NCBI GenBank assembly: GCA_030670795.1
Contig: DAOVAY010000005.1
Span: forward strand, 1-32,796
DNA length: 32,796 nucleotides
Reading direction: 5' to 3'
Origin: Methanobacteriota archaeon
GTDB taxonomy: Archaea; Thermoplasmatota; Thermoplasmata; SG8-5
Shown: piece after piece, positions 24,470-24,916 of the stretch
How positions within the stretch are numbered: the first letter of the stretch is position 1
Layout of the letters: every line of letters begins with the position of its first letter
Notes under the pieces: generated by a model
The model's input: only the letters and a program-made list of their open reading frames with translations
The model's database searches: none
What the model was told of the DNA's origin: nothing
Translations under genes and position numbers: made by a program

Positions 24470-24613
24470 AGGGCAGACCCATATTATAAGGGGGATAAAA
24501 AGGTCAAGGTTGGGTTGCTGAAAATATTCCATAAGTTAAATATACCGATTACTTTTACTGGAATCCCATCAGTAAGGGCCCGTAGCTTAGTCAGGTGGAG
24601 CGTCTGGCTCATA

Positions 24614-24644
24614 TCGTGAGGTCTACCCGGACCCGCGGAGCGAA
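24614..24644 (+). other. tRNA intron 1, canonical 37/38 position
   Basis: Inner stem CGTG(A)GGTC/GACCCGCG; CTC/GAG helix between anticodon loop and intron; relaxed BHB. Confidence 0.85.
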
Positions 24645-24666
24645 ACCAGATGGTCGCCGGTTCAAA

Positions 24667-24806
24667 CCGAAGGCCAGCGAAAATACAATATCGCTGGCAG
24701 AGCTGGCCGAGGCACGGATGAAAAACGGTAGGAACATCCTCCCAACATTTTTCATCCAGTGTCTGAAAAATGCATCGCATTTTTCAATCAGCCTCTTCGT
24801 TGAAAA
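24667..24806 (+). other. tRNA intron 2 (140 nt), non-canonical 59/60 position in the T-loop
   Basis: Central helix TTCA(A) 24661-24665 with (T)TGAA 24800-24804; 3-nt 3' bulge AAT (24805-24807); inner helix CGAAG (24668-24672)/CTTCG (24795-24799); three internal hairpins. Confidence 0.85.
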
Positions 24807-24900
24807 TCCGGTCGGGCCCATTCTGATTTTTCATAGCTAGAAACATGGCCCCGACCTCTCTCGGACTATTACTAATAAAATGCTAATTGTGAAGTCCTCG

Positions 24901-24916
24901 ATCCGGTCGGGCCCAT
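24901..24916 (+). repeat. Second copy of the tRNA 3' end (ATCCGGTCGGGCCCAT; first copy 24806-24821)
   Basis: Exact 16-nt match, 95 bp downstream; no TTGAA upstream of it. Confidence 0.9.

Follow-up and report, generated by a model that had tools for sequence, protein, structure and literature searches.

The window analysed here is a 32,796-nucleotide (nt) stretch (contig DAOVAY010000005.1, assembly GCA_030670795.1) from an archaeon of the SG8-5 order of the Thermoplasmata, whose genome is denoted G000. It hosts a tRNA gene with a CAT anticodon (positions 24576-24820), interrupted by a 31-nt intron at the 37/38 junction and by a 140-nt intron at the 59/60 junction, inside the T-loop. Sequence comparison makes it very probable that this tRNA(CAT) gene is functional and single-copy, and is expressed as one precursor carrying two bulge-helix-bulge (BHB) introns. 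The 140-nt intron, noted at first as a lone oddity, is one copy of a T-loop intron family that has spread among tRNA genes. The euryarchaeal look that an earlier note had ascribed to the rest of the window fits the placement of the organism in the Thermoplasmata.

All exons lie in normal order inside 245 nt. Joined, they give a 74-nt RNA with a full cloverleaf, called Met(cat) by ARAGORN; the CAT anticodon alone cannot tell elongator Met from Ile2 (agmatidine). The coordinates, the two introns and the 74-nt joined tRNA put forward in the earlier note all hold. ARAGORN does not call the gene in the unspliced window, and the Rfam tRNA model assigns to the unspliced region 17.9 bits, a value below threshold. 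The 3' piece of the tRNA plus flanks (ATCCGGTCGGGCCCA) has a chance expectation of 0.05 per window, two mismatches being allowed, and the folding z-score of the whole gene relative to shuffled sequence is -6.4 (0/200 shuffles). A split, trans-spliced tRNA has been considered and rejected, since the halves are not encoded apart.

A DNA search of G000 and 60 relatives first located the intron sequence in other tRNA genes. The first 39 nt (5' module) are described by a covariance model, R1, which includes 7 base pairs, 5 of them changed on both sides. At E<=1e-4, R1 matches 30 copies in 7 of the 13 genomes of the order, and every one of these loci, each of which was read, sits in a tRNA T-loop directly after TTCRAA. 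Among 250 genomes sampled across the class, out-of-order matches, which were not each read, are weak (at most about 26 bits) and within the reach of ordinary T-arms. The sole match among 293 genomes across the phylum, searched at 1e-5, is the window's own genome. With the addition of divergent members, 37 T-loop introns are tabulated in 8 genomes, their boundaries having been defined by hand in place of a home-made finder too noisy at lower score. They range from 32 nt, in a tRNA-Glu, to 177 nt; published archaeal tRNA introns measure 11-129 nt, with medians mostly of 12-25 (PMC4090602). The hosts, some of which were assigned by eye, are CAT, initiator Met, Lys, Gly, Arg, Ser, Ala, Leu, Thr, Val, Pro and Glu tRNAs. 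Ordinary finders miss tRNAs of this lineage: ARAGORN recognizes a tRNA in 34/37 sequences from which the T-loop intron has been removed, and in 2/37 left unjoined, the isotype being wrong in some joined sequences that also have a D- or anticodon-arm intron. The presence of a family at the same T-loop position elsewhere agrees with the two-intron tRNA and structured 59/60 intron envisaged in the earlier note. An assembly error, also contemplated there, is contradicted by homologous introns at the same site in independent genomes.

The T-loop intron is predicted to be a folded RNA, in which P0/h', P1, P3 and P5 are arranged around a junction (Table 1). Relative to the canonical 3-4-3 BHB, the splice site features a 4-bp central helix and two 3-nt bulges, plus an extra U opposite the 5' bulge, and is a slightly relaxed form of the motif. 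The near-canonical BHB of the earlier note stands as to helix and bulges; the extra U had not been mentioned. The central helix, formed by T-loop TTCR and intron-end YGRA, is complete in 34 of the 37 introns. The pair formed by base 57 covaries: where this base is A, the intron partner is U in 15/16 cases, and where it is G, the partner is C in 14/21 and U in 5/21 (Fisher p = 3e-5, relatedness not corrected). Among 12 introns, 23 of the 39 internal pairs are doubly changed, and 0/500 shuffles match this. Paired cells in the same alignment amount to 94.4%, versus 30-50% in slid controls; the percentage is biased upward because the structure was predicted from the same 12 sequences, and the double changes far exceed controls. 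These tests were carried out on the 12-sequence set A3, a 15-sequence MAFFT alignment (A1) having been dropped because its middle aligned poorly. The conserved fold goes far beyond the needs of splicing, a sign that the intron RNA itself may be under selection. Rfam scans for known RNAs within the intron gave only sub-threshold chance matches and no box C/D family. A group I self-splicing intron was also rejected, no Rfam group I match being found.

Empty sites are found in close relatives. The G010 counterpart of this CAT tRNA has an almost identical intron at 37/38, but nothing interrupts its T-loop. The initiator tRNA is encoded by one locus per genome in 12 of the 13 genomes; its T-loop hosts an intron only in G001 (Candidatus Proteinoplasmatales archaeon SG8-5, a same-genus relative in the class Thermoplasmata) and in G004, and is empty in ten others. 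The G000 initiator gene corresponds base for base to the G001 exons. The filled initiator tRNAs should have to work, because each is the sole initiator locus found in its genome. Several intron positions are in use at the initiator loci of the order, as D-loop introns are found in three, and an anticodon-loop intron in one, of the genomes G002, G004, G009 and G010 (loci L280, L281, L271 and L272).

The nearest relative of a T-loop intron usually sits in a different isoacceptor. One G000 Arg intron has its closest match in a G001 Leu intron (0.83), and an initiator intron of G004 in a Ser intron of the same genome (0.82). As in transposed tRNA introns, related introns occur at the same position across tRNA species, independently of tRNA identity, and related genomes feature orthologous genes with empty sites. 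Since intron relatedness does not track tRNA identity, the introns must have moved between tRNA genes, precisely and with the neighbouring T-stem left as it was. Long-tract gene conversion is not favoured as the route of spread, because the T-stems beside the intron remain those of the recipient. Position, structure, family, empty sites and movement between isoacceptors are all established by comparison of sequences.

It may be supposed that the tRNA(CAT) is a pseudogene disrupted by an inserted DNA repeat, and that another copy serves the cell. The insert is indeed a repeat present elsewhere in the genome, and a second copy of the tRNA 3' end lies downstream, but the supposition is very improbable. 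The earlier note had named another intact copy among the signs of a pseudogene, and none was found in the G000 assembly, which is 59% complete and for which tRNA counts are non-exhaustive. Moreover, the gene retains an unbroken acceptor stem, its joined exons make a full cloverleaf, the BHB and inner helices covary, and in both G001 and G004 the one initiator-tRNA locus found is itself interrupted by a member of the family.

The duplicated 3' end is not peculiar to this gene. Copies of positions 60-73, matching in at least 12 of 14 nt and clear of background, follow about ten of the checked G000 tRNA genes at a distance of about 60-130 nt, among them loci L036, L039, L040, L055, L059, L060, L061, L066 and L067. 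Several are in tandem, and often a hairpin is formed with a complementary 5' arm; the hairpins compared share a weak consensus structure. A control in other orders comprised five usable tRNAs, too few, none with a copy, one of the five being itself a false match. At L059 and L060 (contigs C35 and C25 of G000, minus strand), where the Gly and Glu tRNAs are intact, the downstream units include TTTGAACCGAAGG, which resembles the start of the T-loop intron (TTCRAACCGAAGG), and finish with GAAT followed by the 3'-end copy. Such units possibly link T-loop introns with 3'-end copies.

Repeats of this sort are typical of tRNA-gene integration, and could denote a small integrase-type mobile element that uses the tRNA 3' half as attachment site, the interrupted T-loop being a by-product. 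This origin is hardly credible for introns located precisely at the splice junction, with an RNA structure kept by compensatory change, and most tRNAs with an intron lack a downstream copy. No match to the family was found in plasmid and phage records; two pattern matches in viral contigs both fall within ordinary protein-coding genes, and are therefore due to chance. Less probable still is a trans-spliced or alternatively spliced tRNA using the second 3' copy. The intervening hairpin and the T-loop do not make a clear BHB together, nothing is missing from the proximal 3' exon, and the downstream copies of other tRNAs are degenerate, against which can be set the exactness of the second copy and the folded segment preceding it.

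Partial copies of the 5' part of CAT tRNAs, with D-loop inserts, are found just upstream of the complete gene in G006 (L073), G004 (L074) and G012 (L251). Partial copies resemble the tRNA fragments tied elsewhere to mobile elements (PMC3293823, PMC3218864); none of these elements was identified here.

As to expression of the functional two-intron gene, tRNA(CAT) would be transcribed as a single precursor holding both BHB introns, cut by a two-repeat, alpha'2-like endonuclease at 24613/24614, 24644/24645, 24666/24667 and 24806/24807, and the exons would be joined by RtcB. The cutting, the joining, the enzyme responsible and the manner of copying are inferred. The G000 endonuclease, EndA, is encoded on a different contig from tRNA(CAT) and is 357 amino acids long, with two tRNA_int_endo repeats. 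Its best PDB match is 5x89, followed by the A. fulgidus enzyme. The catalytic repeat aligns to those of M. jannaschii and A. fulgidus without insertion at what we take to be the place of the crenarchaeal extra loop. By these sequence features EndA is a two-repeat protein of alpha'2-like type, which answers the question on endonuclease type raised in the earlier note. RtcB was found in G002, G004 and G006.

Some observations weigh against this scheme. Most of the T-loop introns keep both 3-nt bulges, yet in 28 of the 37, the 140-nt one included, an added nucleotide lies opposite the 5' bulge. The alpha4 and alpha2 enzymes are reported to cut canonical BHBs only (review, PMC4033280), and alpha'2 to require a strict 3-nt bulge (2025 study, PMC12397907). 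Either the EndA of this lineage accepts looser sites, or a shift of the helix yields five pairs. No RtcB turned up in G000 (59% complete) or in G001 (70% complete). As to the copying route, reverse transcriptase (RVT_1) was not found in five incomplete genomes, and copying via reverse transcription is not favoured. Non-canonical introns are considered beyond the reach of this strict endonuclease type, and its co-occurrence with the T-loop introns makes a direct biochemical test possible.

In this reading, copies of the family have passed between tRNA genes of the order, at 59/60 in every case. Because the intron brings a strand complementary to the T-loop, which hardly varies (TTCR / YGRA), any T-loop in which it lands would become a splice site. 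T-loop introns might tentatively be regarded as a selfish element, a folded RNA that brings along one half of the splice site it needs, is excised by the host endonuclease and copies itself into further tRNA genes exactly at 59/60, the partial tRNA copies next to many tRNA genes being leftovers of movement; we hold this to be possible, but rather unlikely.

A second tRNA gene, Val(CAC), is located at 917-1027 of the window (plus strand) and has a 37-nt D-loop intron (about 939-975). It is recognized by ARAGORN only after joining.

Table 1. Features of the tRNA(CAT) locus and of its T-loop intron (positions in the window)
Feature	Position	Strand	Remarks
tRNA(CAT) exon 1	24576..24613	+	acceptor 5' strand GGGCCCG, D arm, anticodon stem-loop up to A37
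37/38 intron, 31 nt	24614..24644	+	near-identical intron in G010
tRNA(CAT) exon 2	24645..24666	+	anticodon 3' stem, variable region, T-stem 5' strand, T-loop TTCAAA
59/60 T-loop intron, 140 nt, structured; member of the order-restricted family	24667..24806	+	
tRNA(CAT) exon 3	24807..24820	+	T60, T-stem 3' strand CCGGT, acceptor 3' strand CGGGCCC, A73
Match to covariance model R1 (T-loop + 5' intron module)	24660..24698	+	60.1 bits; sequence in training set
P1 hairpin, inside R1 match	24673..24679 with 24692..24698	+	GCCAGCG with CGCTGGC
h' helix, 5' strand CGAAG	24668..24672	+	partner CTTCG at 24795-24799
P3 long hairpin	24711..24763	+	GGCACGGATGAAAAA...TTTTTCATCCAGTGTC
P5 hairpin	24764..24786	+	TGAAAAATGC-ATC-GCATTTTTCA
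BHB 3' half	24801..24807	+	TGAA with T-loop TTCA (24661-24664), then AAT bulge; extra U at 24800
Downstream hairpin	24845..24915	+	5' arm complementary to tRNA 3' end, 3' arm copies it
Exact second copy of tRNA positions 60-73	24902..24915	+	TCCGGTCGGGCCCA

How introns enter tRNA genes has long been an open question, and mass movement is documented mainly in the Thermoproteales, in which large-scale tRNA intron transposition has been described (2010 work summarised in PMC4090602 and PMC4033280). As far as these summaries go, the introns analysed here are similar in being gained after the species formed and in having BHB splice sites. They differ because the host belongs to the Thermoplasmata, and the family is found at T-loop 59/60 only, is longer and has a conserved multi-helix fold; moreover, a two-repeat, alpha'2-like enzyme is found in place of the (alpha beta)2 endonuclease of Thermoproteales. 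A separate, recent wave in the Thermoplasmata is added here to that case, and its direction and mechanism can be studied because filled and empty sites occur in otherwise identical genes. Numerous tRNA genes that hold several non-canonically placed introns are known likewise in Asgard archaea (Atabeyarchaeia, Freyarchaeia; PMC11291895), a different lineage, for which the available part of the report does not describe a shared structured intron family. A long structured intron is found also in archaeal tRNA-Trp (PMC4090602); that intron is of the box C/D type and at another position, whereas no meaningful box C/D match was obtained here. In Caldiarchaeum (PMC3293823) intron gain is similarly linked to partial tRNA copies adjoining the gene, but introns are at 24/25 and 45/46, and a recombinase-bearing element of 1.8 kb is present, none being identified here. 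The permuted tRNAs of Thermofilum pendens (PMC3218864) share the 59/60 T-loop junction and the BHB, and the initiator tRNA is affected there as well; the 3' half lies upstream in T. pendens, while the order is normal here. In kind, the T-loop introns are transposed BHB tRNA introns, already known; the lineage and the structured family are new.
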